IMG/VR virus record: IMGVR_UViG_3300036791_000851 | Coordinates: 1-64,000 of that record | DNA length: 64,000 bases | Source of the DNA: a virus | Direction: 5' to 3' (one strand) | Shown: piece by piece, positions 17,657 through 44,060 of the stretch | Layout: each line of letters begins with the position of its first letter | Position numbering within the stretch: position 1 is the first letter of the stretch | Made by a program: the position numbers and the translations under genes | Notes under the pieces: model-generated | What the model was told of the DNA's origin: nothing | Database searches by the model: none | What the model saw: only the letters and a program-made list of their open reading frames with translations

Positions 17657-18169
17657 ATGGATTCGGGCACAGTGCAGGCGCCGGGGACGTCCCTTGTCCC
17701 GCCTGAAATGCTGCTGCAGTTACGACGCTTCCGCTTGGAATACGAGCGGTGTTGGCCATGGCTTGATGGAGCGATAGCGCGCTTCGGACGAACGCACGAC
17801 AGGGAGCAACTTTGGCAGGAGCTTTCTGCAAAGCGTAACGTCTTTTTCTTTTCGATGCCGCACTGCGCTGCAATCGTCAGGGTGACTCTTTGGCCGACTG
17901 GGCTTAAAGACCTGCACGTTTGGTTGGTCGGCGGCAATTTGAGGGAGATCAGAGACGGGCTTTATCCCAAGATGGAGGCTTGGGGTAAGCAGATAGGATG
18001 CCATCGAATCATTGGGTACGGCCGCAGAGGATGGCTGCGGGTGCTTGAAGGCTGGATGTCGCACGGTACGACGCGGGTGAAGAGCTTGATGGGCCCGCAA
18101 CCAACCGAGGTGGAATTGAAGATTCTCGGGTACAGCGAACTGGCCGCAAGAGATGGCGAGGAAGGCTAG
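17657..18169 (+). CDS. GNAT-like phage protein
   Basis: It encodes 170 residues. After a helical N-terminus (LRRFRLEYERCWPWLDGAI), the body reads KDLHVWLVGGNLREIRDGLYPKMEAWGKQIGCHRI, then GYGRRGWLRVLEGW. This is the layout of a phage-specific GNAT-like fold (strand, G-G-x-L helix, G-C, then G-R-x-G-W) often found near head and tail genes. Acetyl-CoA binding is not certain because the usual Q/R-x-x-G-x-G/A loop is not clear. It overlaps the start of the giant gene. Confidence 0.55.
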   Translation: MDSGTVQAPGTSLVPPEMLLQLRRFRLEYERCWPWLDGAIARFGRTHDREQLWQELSAKRNVFFFSMPHCAAIVRVTLWPTGLKDLHVWLVGGNLREIRDGLYPKMEAWGKQIGCHRIIGYGRRGWLRVLEGWMSHGTTRVKSLMGPQPTEVELKILGYSELAARDGEEG

Positions 18170-21100
18170 AAAACGGAGAAGCCTGACGACGCGCTGTCCA
18201 CAGCGTCGGAAGGTGCGCCAGGCGGGCGGTGGTCTCCGCAGCCATCGCCCGCCACCGCCGCCGCCGCTGGGTTTTTTCCTGAAGAGCAGAGCTGAACTGC
18301 CCGAAGGATACCGGCCGCCACCGAAGCGCCGGCGTCAGCTTCCTGCACCTTCCGTGACCGATGCAGCACGTGGCGTCCCCGGATACGGGTCCTTCAAGTG
18401 GTCACATGCGGGCAAGATGAACGGCTCCAGCTTACGGTTTCGTCGCGGAATACCGTTTGGCATGGATTGGTGCCAGGTCAACGGCCGTCTTTACCCGATA
18501 GGTTATCCTCAGAGCCAGGCCTGTACGGCGGCCTGCGGCCACATGGCGAGCGAACGCGGTGGCTGCGGCGGCTGCGGTGGCTGCGGCGGCTGTGGCTGCG
18601 GCGATGCTGGCGGCGGCTGTGGCTGCGGCGATGCTAGCGGCGGCTGCAGCTGTGGCAGTCCTGGCGGGGGCGATCCCGGCGGGGGCTCTCCTGGCGGCGG
18701 TCCTGCTTGCGGCTGCTCAGATACAGGCTGTGGCCAAGGCGCCTGCGGCGGCTGCAACTGCGGCGGCTCTTGCGCCGGCGGTTGCGGCGGTCCAGGCGCT
18801 TGCGCCGGTTGCACAGGTACCGGCGCCGGTCTTGGCGGCGGCTTTGGCGCTCCCGCTGGCGGCGATCCTGGAGCGGCGGCTGCAGCGGATGGTGCGCTGG
18901 GTGCGGCGGCGGATGCAGCAGCCTCCGGTGCCCTTGCCGGTGGCGATCCCGGCGGTGCTTTTGCAGGCGGCGATCCCGGAAGCAGTTTTGGCGGCGGCTT
19001 CGGGTTAGGAATGGGTGATCCTAGCAGCGGCTTCAGCAGCGGTTTCGGAAGTTTCTCCTGCGCCACCCCCGGGATGGACATCGGTACTGCTCTCGGCCTG
19101 GCCGCGGCCGATCCCCAGGGATTCGGCATGAGTACGGAGGACATTCAGGCTGGTGTCACCCCGAGCAGCCCGGCAGCGCTCGCTCAATCGGTGGGATATG
19201 CCGTCAGCCCGGCCGAGTCCTCGGTCGAGCTTGGTACTTCAATAGCAGGTGCGATGAATGCGGCAGCAGCCAATGCCGTCCTGAACGCTCCCCAATCGCA
19301 GGTGCCTGCGGTGACTGCCGCAGTGGCACAGGCGACGTCGCTGTCTGAGGTCCTGGCCGCCGCCGCCGCAATGGGTGTGTCGACAAGTGGACCGTTTGGC
19401 GAATTTGGAGGACCGTCACCGGTAGGCATACCCGCGCCCTCACCGCCCGGGCAGGCGATTTTTGTGCCTGATCCCCAGTCCGCTGCGATGAATGCTGCCG
19501 GCGCTCCGGGTGGCGACGTCGGTCTTGGGGATTTTGCAGCATCTCAGCCGTCCGACGGTGGAGATCAATCCCAAGTTGCCGGGCTCGGGGACACCGGCGG
19601 CCAAATGGTCTCGCCGGATTTTGCGCCGCCTGCAAGTGCAGATCAGACCCAGGTAGCGGGTCTGGGCCCTGACACGTTCTCTCCCTCTGCTGACATCTCT
19701 CCTGACACGTTGGACCTGCTGTCGGGCGGCCAGATGTTCGGTCAGGCGCCATCGCAGGGCGGTGCGCAGGTTGCGAGTCTCAGCCAAGACTTTGTCCCGA
19801 GCGCTCCGAGCGGCGGCGGTTTAATCGGCGGCGACAATGTCATCGGTGGCCTCGGCGGTGATTTCAATCTTCCAAGTGGCCTACCGTCGGGGCAAGATCA
19901 GGCGTCTCTTACGGCCTCTAACATCTACAACATGGACTCGCCGTCAAGCCTTGCCTTCATGGGAGGCAGTTCGGGCGGCGGTCAGCAAGCTGCAGAAAAA
20001 GAAATAACAGCCAATGTCGCGTCTCCCGATGGTGGCGGTAAGACCGAGGGACCGATAGCAGGACTCGCAGATCAACTCGGCATAAACGATATTCCGTCAT
20101 CAGGCGGCGGCGATCAGCCGGACACGGCTAAGTCGGATACGACAGAGCCAGACAGCTCGGCGCCGGACAAGGCTGCATCAGAACCTTCAGCACCATCAGA
20201 ACCTACGACGCCATCAGAGCCTACGACACCGTCAGAAGGCGGCAGTCTTGCGAAGGACATTGGTATCGGCGACATCCCGACATCAGCATTCACACCTGGT
20301 GGGTTTGAGACAACGAAGGCGGACACGAGAGAACCAGAGAGCACAACGTCACGGCAGCAAGCGGCGGGGGAGACAACAACAACTTACGATCCGCTGACCG
20401 GTTATCCCATGGGAACGACGACGTCCGCGCCGGCGGAGACAATACCTGATTGGCTAAAAGGCGCGTTCGGCGGTGCGACTCTCGGCGTTCCTGCAATACC
20501 CTTCGCGGGACCGTTCGCTCCGCTTGTGGGCGGCATATTAGGTGCTGGTGTGTTCCCGTTTCTCAACGATCCTAATTTGTTGGGAAGCACACCATTTCCA
20601 GAGCCGTCAGCAACTCCCGAAAGTACCCAACGACCGGCCGGAACTGCGGCGCCGCCGAGCGTGCCATCAGAGCCCTTTGTCGATCCGCTGACCGGCTTTG
20701 CCATGCCGGCACCTGCGCCACCAGGACCAACGACGATAGCAGGTGTTGGTGAAAATGTTCCCGTCAGCGGAGGTGCGGGGAACGAGCCAGTTGTGTCCTC
20801 CGCTACAATACCGGAGGCCACCGGCATCCCGGAAGCGGTGACAACTTTCGATCCATTGACCGGCTATCCCATGGCGGCACCCCCGCCACCGGGGCCCACG
20901 ACCGTAGGAGGCATTGGTGAAGATGTTCCTGTTGTCGGAGGTGCGGGGACCGAGCCAGTCGTGTCTTCCGCTACAATGCCAGAGACCGCCGCCGGCCCGG
21001 GCGGGCTCACCGGAATAGAGACGGGGTTACCGCCTGATTTCAGCATCGCTAGCGTGCGCGAGGCGGTAGGTTTGCCGCCGTCAGTATCTTACGACCCGCT

Positions 21101-24100
21101 CAGCGGCGCCTACATGCCGCCGTACATGGGGCCGACGGCGCCGCCACCGCTTACAGCTTATGAGCTGCCGCCGGTGACGGTCACACCGCCTGATCAACCG
21201 ATAGAGGTTGTTCGACCAGAGGACCTGCCACCGGAAGAACGAGCGCGGCCGACGGAGGCAGCTGCAGTTCCGCTGCCGACTGCGCGGCCGACTGCGGCAC
21301 CTCCGACGACAGCGGCTGAGCGTGCTGATCAAAAAAATCAAGCGACGGCAAATGCTGCAGCAAACGCTGCAGCGAATGCTGCAACACCGCAAGCCACGCC
21401 ACAAAATGCAGCAAATGCCGCAGCGAATGCTGCAGCGAAATCAGTGCCGCAAGCCACACCGCAGCAAGTGGCGAACGCTGTCGCAAACGCCGTGCCTAAT
21501 GCCACGTCGAAACAGATAGAGAACGCCGTGGCGAATGCCGTGCCTAACGCCACCCCGAAACAAGTGGCAACTGCCGTGGCGCAAGTCACACCATCAGCGC
21601 CATCGGTTACCGAAGCGCCGACCGGCGCAGTGCCCACAGCTCAGCCGACCGCAGGCCTCGTGCAGCAACCGGCAGCGTCAGCAGCAGCAGCGACAGCTCC
21701 AGCGGCGCCGACGGTGGGAGGACTTGCGGCAGCACCGAGCGCAACAACGCCTGGTGCTACAGCCGACACCACGGCGCCTAGTACTGTGGGGAGCTTGTTG
21801 AGCAGCGTTGCGAGCGCGATTGGCAGTGCGTTCATCACGCCGGCAGAAGCACGTGAGCGACGGGGTCGACAACAGCAGCCAGGGCGGACGCAGGCGCAGC
21901 AGCAGCGAGCGGCCCGTCAGCAACAGCGATTGCAGACAGCGCGGCAGGCATACATCGTTAACCAAGAGGCCCAGCGAGCTGAAAACGAGAACGCCGCGAA
22001 CAACACCTGGCCGACTAATTCAGCTCAAGCAACTGCGCGTGCCCCGCTCGTAAACGAGCTACGCACCAATCAAACTGCTATGCGGCATTTTGCTGCCGCT
22101 CTTTCAAAAGAAAGTTGGCCTGGAACGAACGAACGCACGGCAACTGCCGTCGGCGAAGCGCTAATGAATCGGGCACCAAGAAGTGGCTCGATTGATGCAG
22201 AGCTCCACAGCCGCTTCTACGGTCCCGTCAATGATGCCGGTCCCAATGGTACCCACCTCGGGCCGCATGGAAGCGGCAACGCCGAAAATCTCTGGAACAG
22301 TTTGACGCCGGCGCAACAAGAGGCGGCAATGGCTCAGGCAAATCGAGTCCTGGACCGACTCGCTAACGGCTCTTCCATCATTGGCAACCGCACCAATCAG
22401 GGCACGAACGACGCGAGACATACTGAAGTGGCAGGGCCGGATGTTATGCGCGTGGGCGGCGAAGCTTTTGGGCACATGGGCGGCGCTCCTCCTGGAGCAA
22501 CGCCGCCTACCCAGACGGCGGCGAGACCAGCAGCACCGGGAGCACCGGAGCAAACCGCCGGGCTCACGGTGGGCGGCGTTTCAATGGGGACGAGCCCAAG
22601 ACCGGGTGAGCAAGGTCGACCTGGTCATGGACAAATGCCCGGACCGCAACTGCAAAACATCCTGGAATATGCCGGCCGTCAGGCCAACGTCCATACTCAA
22701 GTTTTCGCCGGCATCGAAAGGGGTCATCATCGACATGAGGTGAGCGCGAAGACGGGCGGGATCGGCTCTGCCGATGTCAAGCTGGTCGACCCCACTGATG
22801 GGCACGTGCTCAATTCAAACAATCCAGAAGATCGCCAAAGGATTTCAACCTACATCTCGGCGGCGAGAGCTGCCGGCGGTACCGGCATCGGACATGCACA
22901 GAATTATATGGGGCCTTCCGGTATTCATGTCGGTGGATCGGGCCCTGGACATCCAGCGATCGCTTGGGGCGCAGGCGGGAAAAGTGCAAATGTCCCAGAT
23001 TGGGTGCGACAGGCGTATAACCAAGGAGCGCGCAGCACGCTGACGCCAAATCAACTCAACACACGATTGGCGCAGCTTCGGACAACAACACCAGTAGCGG
23101 AGCCACGACCAGCGCCTGCACCAGCACCAGCACCAACGCCTGCACCAGCGCCGGCACCAGCGCCAGCACCTGCACCTGCACCGGCACCTGCACCCGCACC
23201 GGCACCGGCACCGGCACCGCCGCCGCCGACGCAACCACCTCCGATGCAGCCGGTAGCGCCTGCGCCAGCGCCACCGCCCGCGCCAGCACCAGCGCCTGCA
23301 CCACCGCCGATGCAGCCGTCACCGCCGCCGATCAGCCCCGGATTTGCAGGCCGCGCTGGTCTTGGTGAGGCTGGTGGTGTCCGCGGTTTGCCCGGTGCTC
23401 CCTCTGGAGCGGCGCCGCTTTCAGGTCTTGCGGCTGCACCGCCGACAGCCGCGGAGCTTGGTGGTGGGCACGCCGCACCACCATCCGGTTCTTATGCCCA
23501 ACGTGGCGCGGCGCCCCAGCTTGGAACGGGGCGACCTGGTGAGCCGCAACTGCCGTCCACGGCTGCACCATCGGCGGGACCATCCGGTTATGCACAGCCT
23601 GGCGTCACCGCTCCTCAGCCTGGAACGGGCCAGCCCGGTGTGCCGCCATTGCCATCGGAGACGACTACCCCTCCGCCGATGATCTCAGGGCAACCGCCTG
23701 GTGGCCCCGGTGGCCCCGGTGGAATTTTCCCCATCGCGGGACTTGGTGGTGGTGCTGGACTTGGCGAAGCTGGCGGTGTTCCTGGCATGCCCGGTACGCC
23801 TTCTGGCGCACAGCCCGCTGGTGCGCCGACGCGGCCGACAGAGGCGCGGCCGGAAGCGCTGCCACCGCAGACGTCGGAGGAAAGGGAGAAGACGGAGCAG
23901 GCGATAGCGACGATTGCGGGGCTAACTGCGGCTCCGAAGCCGCCGGCACTGGCTAAGGTGGGAACGCCCCAACAGCGCGCGACCGAAGCGTTCGAACGTG
24001 GCCGCCAGCGCATGACAGCAGAGGAACAGGCACAGGCAAAACAGTATGAGCAGAATGTTACTCCACAACTAAGGCAAGACTTGGTGGATGGAAAAATCAA

Positions 24101-25070
24101 CATTTACGACTTCATGTCGAAATCGTCTGGAGGCAAGTATTCCCCAGACACCATCAGGAAGACAGGCGAAGGGGGAATGCCATTTGGCGCCGGGCAGACA
24201 ACTGTCCAGCACGCTGTGCAAGGTCTGCAACGGGTCATCAACGATTATAGGCAGGGCACCGCCAGCGACCGCGCGCTGCAGCAGGCCAACGACAAGGCCA
24301 TGGCGGCATTTACCAGCGCGAGATCGGCTTACGAGGCAAGGCTAGAGGCAGCGGCGGCGGGATATGAGCCGTATACGCCGGCACCTGGTCCTGCTCCTCC
24401 TCCTGCACCCGAAATAGTTCCGATGACACCTACTGGTCCGCCTGGTGGCCTTGGCGGCCCTGGCGGAATTTTCCCGATCGCGGAATTTGGTGGCGGCGCA
24501 GGTCTTGGCGAGGCTGGTGGCGTGCCTGGGTTGGCGGGCGGTCCATCTGGACCGGAGCAGGTTGTGCCGATGACACCAACGGCTCCCTACGTCACCCAGA
24601 ACCTACCGCAGTATCCGCCGATGGGATGGGAGCCGCCGCCGTCTGAGGTGCCCCCTGCTGCTGCGCCTGCTCCGCCTGCTGCTGCGCCTGCTCCGCCTGC
24701 TGCCGCGCCACCACCACCACCGTCCGCTGCACCTACTCCGCCTGCAGCTGCACCACCGCCGCCTGCTGCCGCGCCGCCTGCCGTTGCGCCTGCTCCATTG
24801 GTCGCGGGGCTCGGGCCCGCTTCTGCGCGCGCGCCTTATTATGATCCGAGCTATTTTGGCGATCGTGATTCGCAGGCCGCGCAAGTGCAAGCGATGGTGC
24901 GGCGAGACCCGAGAGCGATGGCTGCAAGAATGCAGGCTGATCCAACGATAGGTGCGATGCTGGCCTCGACGTTCACCCCTGCGGAGCTATCGGCTATCTT
25001 CGGCGATATCGGATTTAATCAGGGTGAGTCGAACCCGGTGGGCGGTCTTGTTCAACAGCAGCAAGGATAA
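18153..25070 (+). CDS. Giant low-complexity virion-type protein with hydrolase-like islands (2305 residues)
   Basis: The first 100 residues are basic and Pro-rich. Residues 107-220 hold 22 cysteines, 19 of them in 138-220 among glycines. Residues about 230-1290 are Ala/Gly/Pro/Ser-rich, with four DPLTG-type repeats (740-990) and an Ala-Asn repeat (about 1063-1145). Residues about 1300-1435 (FAAALSKESWPGTNERTATAVGEALMNRA split by a short gap, then NRTNQGT) resemble a cell-wall hydrolase. Residues about 1499-1626 (ILEYAGRQANVHTQVF, GSADVKLVD, GIHVGGSGPG) resemble a DD-peptidase/M15-like fold. A Pro-Ala run, three AGLGEAGGV repeats and helical C-terminal segments follow. It is probably internal or tail-associated and helps DNA entry through the wall; both enzyme calls are tentative. 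Start ATG 18153 overlaps the previous gene. Confidence 0.6.
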   Translation: MARKARKRRSLTTRCPQRRKVRQAGGGLRSHRPPPPPPLGFFLKSRAELPEGYRPPPKRRRQLPAPSVTDAARGVPGYGSFKWSHAGKMNGSSLRFRRGIPFGMDWCQVNGRLYPIGYPQSQACTAACGHMASERGGCGGCGGCGGCGCGDAGGGCGCGDASGGCSCGSPGGGDPGGGSPGGGPACGCSDTGCGQGACGGCNCGGSCAGGCGGPGACAGCTGTGAGLGGGFGAPAGGDPGAAAAADGALGAAADAAASGALAGGDPGGAFAGGDPGSSFGGGFGLGMGDPSSGFSSGFGSFSCATPGMDIGTALGLAAADPQGFGMSTEDIQAGVTPSSPAALAQSVGYAVSPAESSVELGTSIAGAMNAAAANAVLNAPQSQVPAVTAAVAQATSLSEVLAAAAAMGVSTSGPFGEFGGPSPVGIPAPSPPGQAIFVPDPQSAAMNAAGAPGGDVGLGDFAASQPSDGGDQSQVAGLGDTGGQMVSPDFAPPASADQTQVAGLGPDTFSPSADISPDTLDLLSGGQMFGQAPSQGGAQVASLSQDFVPSAPSGGGLIGGDNVIGGLGGDFNLPSGLPSGQDQASLTASNIYNMDSPSSLAFMGGSSGGGQQAAEKEITANVASPDGGGKTEGPIAGLADQLGINDIPSSGGGDQPDTAKSDTTEPDSSAPDKAASEPSAPSEPTTPSEPTTPSEGGSLAKDIGIGDIPTSAFTPGGFETTKADTREPESTTSRQQAAGETTTTYDPLTGYPMGTTTSAPAETIPDWLKGAFGGATLGVPAIPFAGPFAPLVGGILGAGVFPFLNDPNLLGSTPFPEPSATPESTQRPAGTAAPPSVPSEPFVDPLTGFAMPAPAPPGPTTIAGVGENVPVSGGAGNEPVVSSATIPEATGIPEAVTTFDPLTGYPMAAPPPPGPTTVGGIGEDVPVVGGAGTEPVVSSATMPETAAGPGGLTGIETGLPPDFSIASVREAVGLPPSVSYDPLSGAYMPPYMGPTAPPPLTAYELPPVTVTPPDQPIEVVRPEDLPPEERARPTEAAAVPLPTARPTAAPPTTAAERADQKNQATANAAANAAANAATPQATPQNAANAAANAAAKSVPQATPQQVANAVANAVPNATSKQIENAVANAVPNATPKQVATAVAQVTPSAPSVTEAPTGAVPTAQPTAGLVQQPAASAAAATAPAAPTVGGLAAAPSATTPGATADTTAPSTVGSLLSSVASAIGSAFITPAEARERRGRQQQPGRTQAQQQRAARQQQRLQTARQAYIVNQEAQRAENENAANNTWPTNSAQATARAPLVNELRTNQTAMRHFAAALSKESWPGTNERTATAVGEALMNRAPRSGSIDAELHSRFYGPVNDAGPNGTHLGPHGSGNAENLWNSLTPAQQEAAMAQANRVLDRLANGSSIIGNRTNQGTNDARHTEVAGPDVMRVGGEAFGHMGGAPPGATPPTQTAARPAAPGAPEQTAGLTVGGVSMGTSPRPGEQGRPGHGQMPGPQLQNILEYAGRQANVHTQVFAGIERGHHRHEVSAKTGGIGSADVKLVDPTDGHVLNSNNPEDRQRISTYISAARAAGGTGIGHAQNYMGPSGIHVGGSGPGHPAIAWGAGGKSANVPDWVRQAYNQGARSTLTPNQLNTRLAQLRTTTPVAEPRPAPAPAPAPTPAPAPAPAPAPAPAPAPAPAPAPAPAPPPPTQPPPMQPVAPAPAPPPAPAPAPAPPPMQPSPPPISPGFAGRAGLGEAGGVRGLPGAPSGAAPLSGLAAAPPTAAELGGGHAAPPSGSYAQRGAAPQLGTGRPGEPQLPSTAAPSAGPSGYAQPGVTAPQPGTGQPGVPPLPSETTTPPPMISGQPPGGPGGPGGIFPIAGLGGGAGLGEAGGVPGMPGTPSGAQPAGAPTRPTEARPEALPPQTSEEREKTEQAIATIAGLTAAPKPPALAKVGTPQQRATEAFERGRQRMTAEEQAQAKQYEQNVTPQLRQDLVDGKINIYDFMSKSSGGKYSPDTIRKTGEGGMPFGAGQTTVQHAVQGLQRVINDYRQGTASDRALQQANDKAMAAFTSARSAYEARLEAAAAGYEPYTPAPGPAPPPAPEIVPMTPTGPPGGLGGPGGIFPIAEFGGGAGLGEAGGVPGLAGGPSGPEQVVPMTPTAPYVTQNLPQYPPMGWEPPPSEVPPAAAPAPPAAAPAPPAAAPPPPPSAAPTPPAAAPPPPAAAPPAVAPAPLVAGLGPASARAPYYDPSYFGDRDSQAAQVQAMVRRDPRAMAARMQADPTIGAMLASTFTPAELSAIFGDIGFNQGESNPVGGLVQQQQG
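18522..18815 (+). repeat. Cys/Gly-rich trinucleotide-like coding segment
   Basis: The DNA is dominated by GGC, TGC and GGT codons and encodes C-G-G-C and C-G-C-G type runs. The same frame gives coherent GGDPGG repeats directly downstream, so the frame is probably real. Such sequence is prone to slippage and to assembly error. Confidence 0.75.
21343..21590 (+). repeat. Ala-Asn (ANAAANAVPNAT) coding repeats
   Basis: About 80 codons encode repeats of the forms NAAANAA and VANAVANAVPNAT, joined by QATPQ or KQ linkers. The region should form helices or a flexible spacer within the giant protein. Confidence 0.7.
23106..23330 (+). repeat. Pro-Ala coding repeat
   Basis: Alternating CCA/CCG/CCT and GCA/GCG/GCC codons encode a (PA)n stretch, then PPP-rich pieces. 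It separates the peptidase-like island from the Gly-rich C-terminal third. Long Pro-Ala runs act as stiff spacers in other proteins. Confidence 0.8.
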
Positions 25071-34597: not shown

Positions 34598-34978
34598 ATG
34601 AAATGGCTGAACCACGACAAGACTGAGACCTGGATCATCTATTTCGTTCTCGTCGTGGTGATCCTGATGATGCTTGCCGCGGTCGGGTACATATCGGGAC
34701 GCTGGTACATCGAGCCGAGCACAGCCGCGCCACAGGCTCAGATCGATCTCTATGGTGACGTACCGCTTGATGCGGTCTTGCTGCCTATCGACCGCGCGGC
34801 GCTTACTGAGGCATACCGCGGCCATTTAATCCGGTTGTGGAATGTCTGGCTGACCGATGGCGCAAAAGACGCATCGCGTTTTCGCAATGGACTGAAGATC
34901 GCTCGCGGAGCTTACCACCAGGCAGCAGAGGCGATTGCTAAGCGCGAGGAGGTAGAACGGCAGGAGAACAAGCCATGA
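34598..34978 (+). CDS. Membrane-anchored protein upstream of endolysin
   Basis: It encodes 126 residues. One N-terminal transmembrane segment (WIIYFVLVVVILMMLAAVGYI, about residues 12-32, split here for length) is followed by a soluble part that ends in a charged helix (RGAYHQAAEAIAKREEVE). It overlaps the endolysin start by four bases. Topology and position suit an i-spanin-like or lysis-regulating protein, but no partner o-spanin is evident. Confidence 0.5.
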   Translation: MKWLNHDKTETWIIYFVLVVVILMMLAAVGYISGRWYIEPSTAAPQAQIDLYGDVPLDAVLLPIDRAALTEAYRGHLIRLWNVWLTDGAKDASRFRNGLKIARGAYHQAAEAIAKREEVERQENKP

Positions 34979-36528
34979 GAATCGCAATCTCAGCAGGCCA
35001 TGGTTCCAAAATTGCAGGTGCCGCAGGTCCTGAACCATGGGGCCTCATAGAGTACGATGAGAACGTCCGGGTCATGAACCGGACCGCTGAGTATCTGCGC
35101 GCTGCCGGCGTCCCGACTGAAACGTACACGGACACGATTTCTACGGATCAAGATTCCAACCTCAAGCTGCTGACCGATTGGCACAACAATGTCGCGTTCG
35201 AGGGTGTCGGCGGCGACGATAGGTTGGACGTCTCGATTCACTTCAACCATGATGGCGATACCACGGGCGGGCGCGGCACTGAATGCTGGTATTGCTCTCA
35301 GAGCACATTGGCTGCGGCGGTGTCGGAGGCGATTGCAGATGCCGGCCATCTGCAAGACCGGGGCGCAAAAAAATCGACCGGATATTATTTTCTCAATCAT
35401 ACCTATGCCGCGAGCCTGATTGTGGAATGTTGTTTCGTGAATGCCAAATTGGACTGCGATCTGTTCCGCCAAAACTTCGATGCCATTTGTGGGGCCCTTG
35501 CCGCAGTGCTATCTGGCGAGCCCATCGAACTTCCCCCGATGCCTCCCATCGACGTCGAGCACCCAATTCTGGAGGAAGGCGACAAGGGGCCAGCCGTGGC
35601 TGAGGTGCAGCGCATCCTCGGGCTGGTGCCGCCCGATGGCGATTTCGGACCCGCAACAACGGCCTGGGTCAGATCATTCCAAGCGGCAGCTGGGCTCTCC
35701 GATGTTGATATTGACGGTGTGGTCGGCCCGGCTACGTGGAACGCGCTTACCGATCTCGACGCCAAGATGCGACGAGGCAATGACGGCATCAGCGACCAGC
35801 TTGCCCAGCAGATTGACCAGCTGTGCGCCGCTTCGCCGCTGAATGACTACTCGTGGATAGATCGAGGCACCTTGCCTGCTGGTATCTACGCCGGCCTAGC
35901 GAAGACGTATGCAATGGTGCTGCAGAATGAAGAGCCGGCGATCGCCAACGCTGTTATGGTCATGGAGCGTGCGAGCAAGGGCGACGAAGAGCACGATGCG
36001 CTCGCCTTGTACGAGGACGCATTCGAGGAGATGGATATCGATGTCCAGGAGGGCGGCATCGAGACGTTGCGGGCGCTGTTCATCATGATGATCGGATTAG
36101 CAGCACGCGAGTCGTCTGGTGACCACTGGTGCGGCCGAGACACCTCGGCCTCAAACGTCGAAAGCACGACAGCTGAAGCCGGTTTCGTGCAGACGAGCTA
36201 TAATATCTCCAGCTTTTCCTCGACCATCCCGCCGTTGCTCAAAGTCTATTGGGATGATCCCAACGGCTTTCTCCCGACCTTCGATCGCGGTTGCCCTTCG
36301 CCGTCAGCGGACGATCTCAGCAGCTACGGACGGGGAGACGGCGCGCGCTACCAATTCCTAGCGCGCTTCAGCCCTGCCATGCATGCCCTGATCAGCGGGG
36401 TTGGCATGCGGCTGGGATGCAAACACTGGGGGCCTATTCAAAGGGGGGAAGTGGACCTTGTTCCAGAGGTGGAGCAGCTTCTCCTGGCGGTCGAGCAGCT
36501 GGTGGACGATCAGAAGGCCGGGGCCTAG
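34975..36528 (+). CDS. Three-domain endolysin: Amidase_3, peptidoglycan-binding, lysozyme-like C-domain
   Basis: It encodes 517 residues and has no signal peptide. Domain 1 (1-185) is a zinc N-acetylmuramoyl-L-alanine amidase: SAGHG with His9, Glu26/Glu29, SIHFN with His89 and catalytic-type Glu151 in IVECCFV. Domain 2 (about 195-260) is a peptidoglycan-binding repeat (GDKGPAVAEVQRILGL, DGDFGPAT, DGVVGPATWNAL). The C-terminal 220 residues (IGLAARESSGDHWCGRD, AEAGFVQTSYNI, CKHWGPIQ) look like a lysozyme/transglycosylase-type domain with Glu in ARESSG. It would cut both the amide bond and possibly the glycan. Release by the upstream holin is expected. Confidence 0.85.
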   Translation: MRIAISAGHGSKIAGAAGPEPWGLIEYDENVRVMNRTAEYLRAAGVPTETYTDTISTDQDSNLKLLTDWHNNVAFEGVGGDDRLDVSIHFNHDGDTTGGRGTECWYCSQSTLAAAVSEAIADAGHLQDRGAKKSTGYYFLNHTYAASLIVECCFVNAKLDCDLFRQNFDAICGALAAVLSGEPIELPPMPPIDVEHPILEEGDKGPAVAEVQRILGLVPPDGDFGPATTAWVRSFQAAAGLSDVDIDGVVGPATWNALTDLDAKMRRGNDGISDQLAQQIDQLCAASPLNDYSWIDRGTLPAGIYAGLAKTYAMVLQNEEPAIANAVMVMERASKGDEEHDALALYEDAFEEMDIDVQEGGIETLRALFIMMIGLAARESSGDHWCGRDTSASNVESTTAEAGFVQTSYNISSFSSTIPPLLKVYWDDPNGFLPTFDRGCPSPSADDLSSYGRGDGARYQFLARFSPAMHALISGVGMRLGCKHWGPIQRGEVDLVPEVEQLLLAVEQLVDDQKAGA

Positions 36529-42786: not shown

Positions 42787-42819
42787 AAAAGACCGCTGCG
42801 GCAGGATAGTCGCAGCGGT
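42787..42819 (-). terminator. Rho-independent terminator after the PEP-CTERM-like gene
   Basis: Read on the minus strand, ACCGCTGCG (42819-42811) pairs perfectly with CGCAGCGGT (42800-42792) around a ten-base loop, followed by CTTTTATGG. It begins nine bases beyond the stop at 42828. Confidence 0.75.
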
Positions 42820-42827
42820 AATTCTTG

Positions 42828-43634
42828 TTAGGCCGAAGCCTGCGCCATGCGCGCCCACCAGAAACGCTTCTGGCGCAGACGCGCAAAGCCTAGCAACAGG
42901 AGACCGACCAATCCCGGCAGACCAGCACCGGCGATTGGACCGGGGACCGCTGCCTGGTTGAAGCCCAGGAAGCTTTCCGCCCCGTCCGTGGACGGCAAGC
43001 AAGGGCTGATGGTGCTTGGACAACCGAACGAGGCTGACAAGCCCTCGAACAGACCATTAGCGTTGCCACCATTCGCAGCGATGATGCTGTTGAACGTGGT
43101 CCGCTCAGCAGCACTCAGTACGATGTCGAACACGGAATTGCCGTTGCCTTGCTGTTGAGCCAGTTGGGCAGCGGTGATGTTGACCGGGCCGTCGCCGGAG
43201 AAGGTTCCGAGGACAACGCCCGCTGAGTTGTAGATTTTCAACACCAATGTATCAAATGTGAGACCGACCACGTTACCAGTCTCGTTGGTATCGAGGCCGA
43301 TGCCGACATTCGCGCCGCTGGTCCAGCCCAAGGAATTGAGGCTCACCACCAGGCTTTCATTGGTGCCGGTGCTCGGTTGATGCACCGGGCAAGTTGCTGC
43401 GGTGCAAGCCGTTCCTGTGGGGCCGGTAAAGAGGGTTGTCCCTCCTGCACCAGCAACCGTGCCGCCCGCCTCGAAGCCGTTGTTTTGCAACGTCAGAAGA
43501 CGGGGTGCATTGCCAAAACCGGTTGCCCCAAGATCGGCAAACGTGCTCTCGGCAATCATGAGATCAGCCTGAGCGGCGGGCGCGAACGCGACCGAGGCCA
43601 AGGCGGTAGCAAGCAGCAGAGATTTTACATTCAT
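42828..43634 (-). CDS. Exported PEP-CTERM-like protein
   Basis: It encodes 268 residues from ATG 43634 behind GCAGGAGCTAG. Residues 1-23 form a Sec signal peptide (MNVKSLLLATALASVAFAP, then AAQA). The mature part is Gly/Thr/Asn-rich and beta-like (NNGFEAGGTVAGAGGTTLF, ESLVVSLNSLGWTSG) with a Cys pair near CTAATC and another near CPSTISPC. From residue 230 it has VPGPIAGAGLPGL, a hydrophobic stretch, then RLRQKR: the tripartite signal read by exosortases, in the form common in Rhizobiales. Eleven further residues (FWWARMAQASA) follow the basic cluster, which is unusual. It stands alone between a divergent gene and a terminator, like a moron. Confidence 0.8.
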   Translation of the reverse strand: MNVKSLLLATALASVAFAPAAQADLMIAESTFADLGATGFGNAPRLLTLQNNGFEAGGTVAGAGGTTLFTGPTGTACTAATCPVHQPSTGTNESLVVSLNSLGWTSGANVGIGLDTNETGNVVGLTFDTLVLKIYNSAGVVLGTFSGDGPVNITAAQLAQQQGNGNSVFDIVLSAAERTTFNSIIAANGGNANGLFEGLSASFGCPSTISPCLPSTDGAESFLGFNQAAVPGPIAGAGLPGLVGLLLLGFARLRQKRFWWARMAQASA

Positions 43635-43787
43635 TCTAGCTCCTGCAAGGAGACGAGGCGTAGGCTTGTTGCCATTCTGCCTCTGGGGGTGTTTGCCGTT
43701 TTCCTCCGAAACCGGCGCCTCACACGCTAGGCTATACGTGCATATCATGCTAGAGTTTATTTTTGGATTTGGTTACAGGTGCAACCT

Positions 43788-44060
43788 ATGAAGGTGACTG
43801 AATTTGCTGCCGAGACGACGGAGCTGCTCAATCTCATGGCTGCAGCTTTGAAGGGGCATCATACGTATATCCAAGGCGCAGTGCTGGCTGATCTGCTGTC
43901 TATGTTCTTGGCTGGCCACTATCTTGCGGACAATCCCGAGGAAACGGACAAGATGCGCGAGGCGCTACTCACGGCGCACATCGCGCAGGTTCGCAGGCTG
44001 ATCCCGCGCAATGAGAAGCTGATCCTCGAAGGCCTTACCAAGGCGACGCGGAAGCAATGA
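43788..44060 (+). CDS. Small helical protein, 90 residues
   Basis: ATG 43788 lies 153 bases from the divergent exported-protein start; a GTG three codons earlier is possible. The product is helical (TEFAAETTELLNLMAAALKGH, LADLLSMFLAGHYLADNPEET). The gap before it holds promoters for both directions by position, but I see no convincing -35/-10 pair. Function unknown. Confidence 0.5.
   Translation: MKVTEFAAETTELLNLMAAALKGHHTYIQGAVLADLLSMFLAGHYLADNPEETDKMREALLTAHIAQVRRLIPRNEKLILEGLTKATRKQ

Follow-up and report, generated by a model that had tools for sequence, protein, structure and literature searches.

A phage protein with a C-terminal sorting tail as candidate substrate of a divergent host exosortase

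We have found that a C-terminal protein tail with the signature PGPIxGAGLP pairs, both statistically and positionally, with one divergent enzyme of the exosortase family. The same tail closes a protein of 268 residues encoded in the window (by which we mean the whole stretch of DNA analyzed, 64 kb out of a 66.6-kb IMG/VR virus record that corresponds to a soil phage). We strongly infer that this protein is sorted by the host exosortase; it is probably a phage-encoded substrate of that enzyme, presented at the surface of the cell during infection or lysogeny, and the site of display is probably the polysaccharide layer of the cell. An earlier note on this DNA had described an exported PEP-CTERM-like protein of a phage, a reading that is partly supported and was right in substance, the signal being not PEP-CTERM but a distinct PGPIxGAGLP tail.

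If this is true, phages would have a recurrent strategy of taking over a bacterial pathway for surface sorting, the tail would predict the hosts infected (linking up to 85 phage contigs to a host group) and a new exosortase subfamily would become accessible through the phage proteins as tractable substrates. The literature searched, open-licence papers only, yielded no paper on phage-encoded exosortase substrates. To our knowledge, the biochemistry of exosortases in Gram negative bacteria is still poorly known.

The 268-residue protein and its phage setting

The window codes for a terminase large subunit (E 1e-79), a portal, a virion structural protein, an endolysin, an Erf-like annealing protein and a helicase. 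The presence of terminase, portal, virion structural, endolysin and replication genes identifies it as a tailed phage, in agreement with the context given in the earlier note. The structural half of this phage also contains an ORF of 2305 codons (18153-25070). The only candidate for an integrase was a single match of a crude motif scan, antisense to a long ORF, and was taken as spurious. The features of the gene under study are collected in Table 1.

Table 1. Features of the sorting-tail gene and its surroundings (positions in the window)
Feature	Position	Strand	Basis or remark
Endolysin gene	34975-36528		About 6.3 kb from the sorting-tail CDS
Inverted repeat 3' of the stop codon, terminator-like, weak T tract	42792..42819	-	
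CDS, 268 aa, exported protein with C-terminal sorting tail	42828..43634 (including stop)	-	
Basic cluster and WW extension, residues 252-268 (RLRQKRFWWARMAQASA)	42831..42881	-	Similar extensions in L001, L010, L016 and L041
Hydrophobic stretch of the tail, residues 240-251	42882..42917	-	Hydropathy and model
Signature motif VPGPIAGAGLPGL of the sorting tail, residues 230-242	42909..42947	-	Core invariant in 30 aligned tails
Mature domain, residues 24-229, predicted beta-sandwich	42948..43565	-	AlphaFold2 model
Sec signal peptide, residues 1-23	43566..43634	-	Sequence; putative cleavage after AQA
Intergenic region, probable promoter region	43635..43778		Between the 268-aa CDS and the divergent + strand gene 43779-44060
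Shine-Dalgarno AGGAG	43640..43644	-	Sequence

An alternative in-frame ATG at 43748 would give a longer ORF, but it is the start at 43634 that is preceded by the ribosome-binding site GCAGGAGCTAGAATG and from which the signal peptide, MNVKSLLLATALASVAFAPAAQA, is read. This peptide ends in AQA and is followed by DL. Both the export of the product and a ribosome-binding site belonging to the gene itself had been proposed before and are supported. The mature part is rich in Gly, Thr and Asn. The C-terminal tail, VPGPIAGAGLPGLVGLLLLGFARLRQKRFWWARMAQASA, reaches a peak mean hydropathy of 2.02 over a 17-residue window, and the AlphaFold2 model places a helix at residues 240-267, with residues 234-246 at pLDDT below 50. 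The tripartite C-terminal sorting signal that had been recognized here is supported by sequence and hydropathy, as well as by the viral contigs that share the tail (see below).

Like the phage morons of superinfection exclusion and lysogenic conversion, this is an extra gene for an exported protein and a probable transcription unit of its own, as had been suggested, with a divergent neighbour and a hairpin 3' of the stop codon. No moron using an exosortase-type sorting tag was found described in the literature searched. The hairpin had been called a perfect terminator. It does have a good stem, but its minus-strand T tract is only CTTTTA, and for this reason it was missed by a consensus scan in the minus orientation. 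In the region upstream of the CDS, no sequence of the minus strand was convincing as a sigma-70 site.

Another phage contig (L001) has an ortholog, 89% identical; the neighbouring genes can be recognized in both translations, and a hairpin, of different sequence, is also found 3' of the L001 stop codon. The dN/dS between both copies was ~0.10, a low value from which we conclude that the protein is maintained by purifying selection. The divergent neighbour at 43779-44060, a gene for a 93-aa protein, is kept in L001 too.

The 268-aa protein had no match in NCBIfam, Pfam or 50,697 phage records, and nothing significant among the PHROGs (one at E 0.47). Full-length homologs were absent from the phage records, plasmids and genome contigs that were searched by tblastn or with peptide patterns, the latter reaching close relatives only.

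The sorting tail in viral contigs

We searched for the tail with a 35-base degenerate DNA pattern for VPGPI[AV]GAG[LF]PG and found it in 85 viral contigs, when only ~0.001-0.01 would be expected by chance (for an assumed 60 Gb). In a collection of bacterial genomes the same pattern appeared in eight contigs, all of them titled Bradyrhizobium or Alphaproteobacteria MAGs. The motif was located 28-41 residues from the C-terminus in every complete viral protein and, by crude motif rules, 61 of the 73 complete proteins had a signal-peptide-like start and 71 of the 73 a basic tail. Once signal peptide and tail were removed, 79 proteins fell into 22 blastp clusters and therefore the tail is common to proteins with unrelated mature parts. 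The cluster of the 268-aa protein has nine members, the others being 40-88% identical to it. The extension of 11 residues past the basic cluster, regarded before as an oddity, is instead a recurrent variant of the R.KR..WW type, found in the loci listed in Table 1.

Among 63 flanking ORFs of the tail loci, the most frequent families were major head, terminase, head protease, endolysin and integrase, and these head and packaging families indicate that most of the tail-bearing viral contigs are phages. Several phages carry two tail genes close together. Beyond genes specific to one type of phage, the tail loci revealed no conserved neighbour that could be a functional partner, and two sister tail-protein families gave no match in the phage records. 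One viral tail protein (L048, 897-1583) matched the DVUA0089 family at 144 bits, and another (L072, 1395-2114) matched the XDD4 exosortase-dependent surface family below the cut-off, both families being linked to sorting systems of this kind. The family formed by L041 909-1721 and L083 3033-3830 has host homologs at 44-57% identity, with the same tail and coming from one alphaproteobacterial MAG (L087 and L092), and is a likely case of host-to-phage transfer.

The signal had been attributed to the PEP-CTERM class read by exosortases. The pairing with an exosortase stood, although with a divergent one, and the assignment to PEP-CTERM did not: TIGR02595 gave no match to the 268-aa protein at E<=10 (hmmscan), four of 26 related tail proteins matched it only at E values of at least 0.5, and VPGPI is found where PEP-CTERM has a near-invariant Pro-Glu-Pro. 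The window's own record had no TIGR02595 match either, a null that is weak alone as the control genomes were also silent. As for the two outcomes that, in combination, the earlier note named as speaking against its own reading, a PEP-CTERM match was indeed missing, but best hits to phage tail proteins did not appear at all. The overall organization is nonetheless that of the PEP-CTERM/EpsH system (TIGR02595, PF09721; PMC1569441): a signal peptide, a C-terminal motif with hydrophobic stretch and basic cluster, many unrelated mature domains, an association with exopolysaccharide genes and Cys, Arg and His motifs in a polytopic partner enzyme. It departs from it in the motif, PGPIxGAGLP and not PEP, and in having putative substrates that phages, and not only the host, encode.

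The partner enzyme in host genomes

G001 is a Bradyrhizobium MAG that carries the tail, and we analyzed 147 genomes of its genus. A tail profile (A2, with matches at E<1e-9 taken as strong) was strong in four of them, G001, G126, G059 and G002, with 9, 7, 3 and 1 copies, respectively. Each of the four has one gene of ~320 aa that matches TIGR04178, the exosortase/archaeosortase signature, at 26-28 bits for a cut-off of 23; by hmmscan one of the enzymes scored 24.1 bits and another 22.7, just below the cut-off. Two EpsH-positive controls were above this cut-off as well. Only this general signature passed its cut-off, the named NCBIfam Xrt subfamilies giving no match; there were weak matches, below cut-off, to archaeosortases D and E, and PF09721 matched nothing in the four genomes. 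The motifs CSS, NVTR and H-x-x-W-G (HNQWG) are kept in all four enzyme sequences, and C199, N242-R245 and H260-G264 are invariant in the profile built from them (A4). They parallel the CxG, NxxR and HxxxG motifs of EpsH (PMC1569441), although the enzyme described here escapes PF09721 and has CSS and not CxG. A crude hydropathy count gave seven membrane segments, not eight. By its signature and motifs, then, the enzyme is a member of the exosortase/archaeosortase superfamily and not EpsH proper. It was not found in the viral contigs.

When A4 was run on the same 147 genomes as A2, the tail was detected in 20 and the enzyme in 21, with 19 having both, one the tail only and two the enzyme only (Fisher p ~1e-20 over the 147 genomes, ignoring kinship). 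The EpsH-type exosortase (PF09721), considered as partner and rejected, is present in 19 of the 147 genomes and in one of the 20 with the tail (p 0.47). At the level of the order, all six genomes with the enzyme above 100 bits carry the tail (p 1e-10), and three other tail matches are partial and inside frames of 750 aa. The association was weaker at the family level (11 genomes with the tail and 12 with the enzyme, of which six had both, five the tail only and six the enzyme only). Two MAGs with strong tails, G003 and G004, had no detectable enzyme, perhaps through being incomplete.

Enzyme and tail genes are adjacent or at most ~1 kb apart in G017, G055, G085, G132, G138, G148, G155, G167 and G170, an arrangement reported for sorting systems with a single target (PMC3237569). 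In G126 and G059 the enzyme gene and several tail genes, ~28-47 kb from it, share one exopolysaccharide region that includes a polyprenyl glycosylphosphotransferase (TIGR03025) and an ElyC-like gene. It also contains what we take, from reading the sequence, to be an asparagine-synthase-like gene.

Most of the additional shared genomes have a second branch of the enzyme (270-300 bits). They code for tiny exported proteins (~60-100 aa) ending in GAPGPIAGAGLPxLAxGYGVYWLxRRRRK, often adjacent to the enzyme gene, and both are probably a dedicated enzyme-target pair. This second branch and its tiny proteins were seen at L103-L110 and L141-L147 (Bradyrhizobium and relatives). The tail of the tiny proteins was found in a single viral contig, and VPGPI tails in which A, V, L, I, F, S, T, P or M replace the Gly after LP in two. 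Given the 85 viral contigs with the main pattern, the phage tails match the first enzyme branch.

The Bradyrhizobium-type host system put forward in the earlier note is supported by the occurrence of tail and enzyme in Bradyrhizobium-like genomes. For the window phage itself, a host of this type is suggested by the tail and by a partial terminase match, its terminase having 49% identity, along part of the sequence, with one in a Bradyrhizobium genome.

Two other sorting systems are comparable. The archaeosortase/PGF-CTERM system (ArtA of Haloferax; PMC11980579) shares the superfamily signature TIGR04178 and a motif containing Pro-Gly, but it belongs to another domain of life and its motif is different, the PGPIxGAGLP system being bacterial. 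The GlyGly-CTERM/rhombosortase system (PMC3237569) has in common with ours a Gly-rich motif, the tripartite layout and an enzyme that adjoins its single target, but there the partner is a rhomboid protease, whereas here it is an exosortase-family enzyme.

Possible role at the cell surface

In the mechanism that we propose, Sec would export the 268-aa protein and signal peptidase would remove residues 1-23. The tail would hold the protein in the inner membrane, with the basic end inside, until a host enzyme of the exosortase family, belonging to a subfamily that acts specifically on PGPIxGAGLP tails, would recognize the motif, cut off the hydrophobic tail and pass the mature domain to a surface anchor; enzyme and tail are matched in this step because of their co-occurrence and adjacency. 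Taken jointly, the course of events up to this point seems to us very likely. The beta-sandwich mature domain might then lie in the exopolysaccharide layer and alter the cell surface during infection or lysogeny, with a glycan bound or masked in such a way that other phages could not adsorb. This last step is conjectured from the fold predicted for a sister phage family that shares the tail, a fold resembling a carbohydrate-binding module, and in its specific form, the masking of a glycan against other phages, we put it forward tentatively.

The AlphaFold2 model of the 268-aa protein is a beta-sandwich (mean pLDDT 70.6, pTM 0.69) with no Foldseek match under E 0.001 and a best Z of 5.8, which is uninformative since this level is common for any beta-sandwich. 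The model of the sister family (mean pLDDT 80.7) matched CBM29, with a Foldseek E of 2e-4 and a VIA Z of 7.5 (rmsd 3.5, 120 residues). For this model the top Foldseek rows were a flagellar sheath protein, and VIA ranked a domain of an insecticidal protein first (Z 8.7), so that the ranking favours a fold of the glycan-binding type and not an identity. Zoogloea cells require PEP-CTERM proteins to retain exopolysaccharide (PMC9012009). From this role, the sister model and the exopolysaccharide setting of the host genes, a glycan-associated phage surface protein would be the most likely role. How the phage would benefit is a conjecture, with exclusion of competing phages as a first guess and polysaccharide remodelling as a second. 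A whole class of soil phages might in this manner place a glycan-binding coat on Bradyrhizobium-type cells through a new exosortase subfamily, excluding phages or remodelling the exopolysaccharide, a generalization that we find possible but doubtful.

The same sorting could serve another benefit, a changed polysaccharide layer or aggregation (for biofilm or progeny retention) in place of exclusion. The Zoogloea precedent, the location of host tail genes in an exopolysaccharide region and the fold predicted for the sister family all point this way, but the protein's own model says nothing about it, and we consider this explanation rather unlikely. Another alternative is that the tail is a mere membrane anchor inherited with a captured host gene, the exported protein staying uncut in the inner membrane. 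A signal peptide, a hydrophobic tail and a basic end would in principle be enough for anchoring. However, anchoring alone needs no motif before the hydrophobic stretch, and the one found there is invariant over unrelated proteins and tracks one enzyme family across genus and order; besides, none of the host tail proteins compared is homologous to the mature domain. All this makes the anchor improbable. That the gene codes for a part of the virion or of the lysis machinery (an accessory tail, holin or spanin protein, for instance) and that its product is exported by coincidence could be suspected from its distance to the endolysin gene (Table 1) and from the endolysins that flank some related loci, but it is very improbable when no PHROG or phage record matches the protein, unrelated tail-protein families adjoin different genes in different phages and the tail is common to chromosomal host proteins. 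Finally, although some tail loci of the viral collection may be host DNA (L043 and L074, for example, have tails resembling host ones), the idea that the window is misbinned bacterial DNA and the gene an ordinary host surface protein is largely refuted, and in our opinion scarcely credible, given the phage genes of the window, the close ortholog with similar surroundings in L001 and the head and packaging families flanking other loci.

Phage-encoded substrates of host exosortases, the reading that we prefer for the 268-aa protein, may be a more general phenomenon, since the strict canonical pattern VPEPATLALLG was found in 27 viral contigs (L151-L177), mostly in one protein family. Portal, major head and DNA methyltransferase families are located nearby. 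In several of these contigs the canonical PEP-CTERM gene is only a few genes away from the portal gene.
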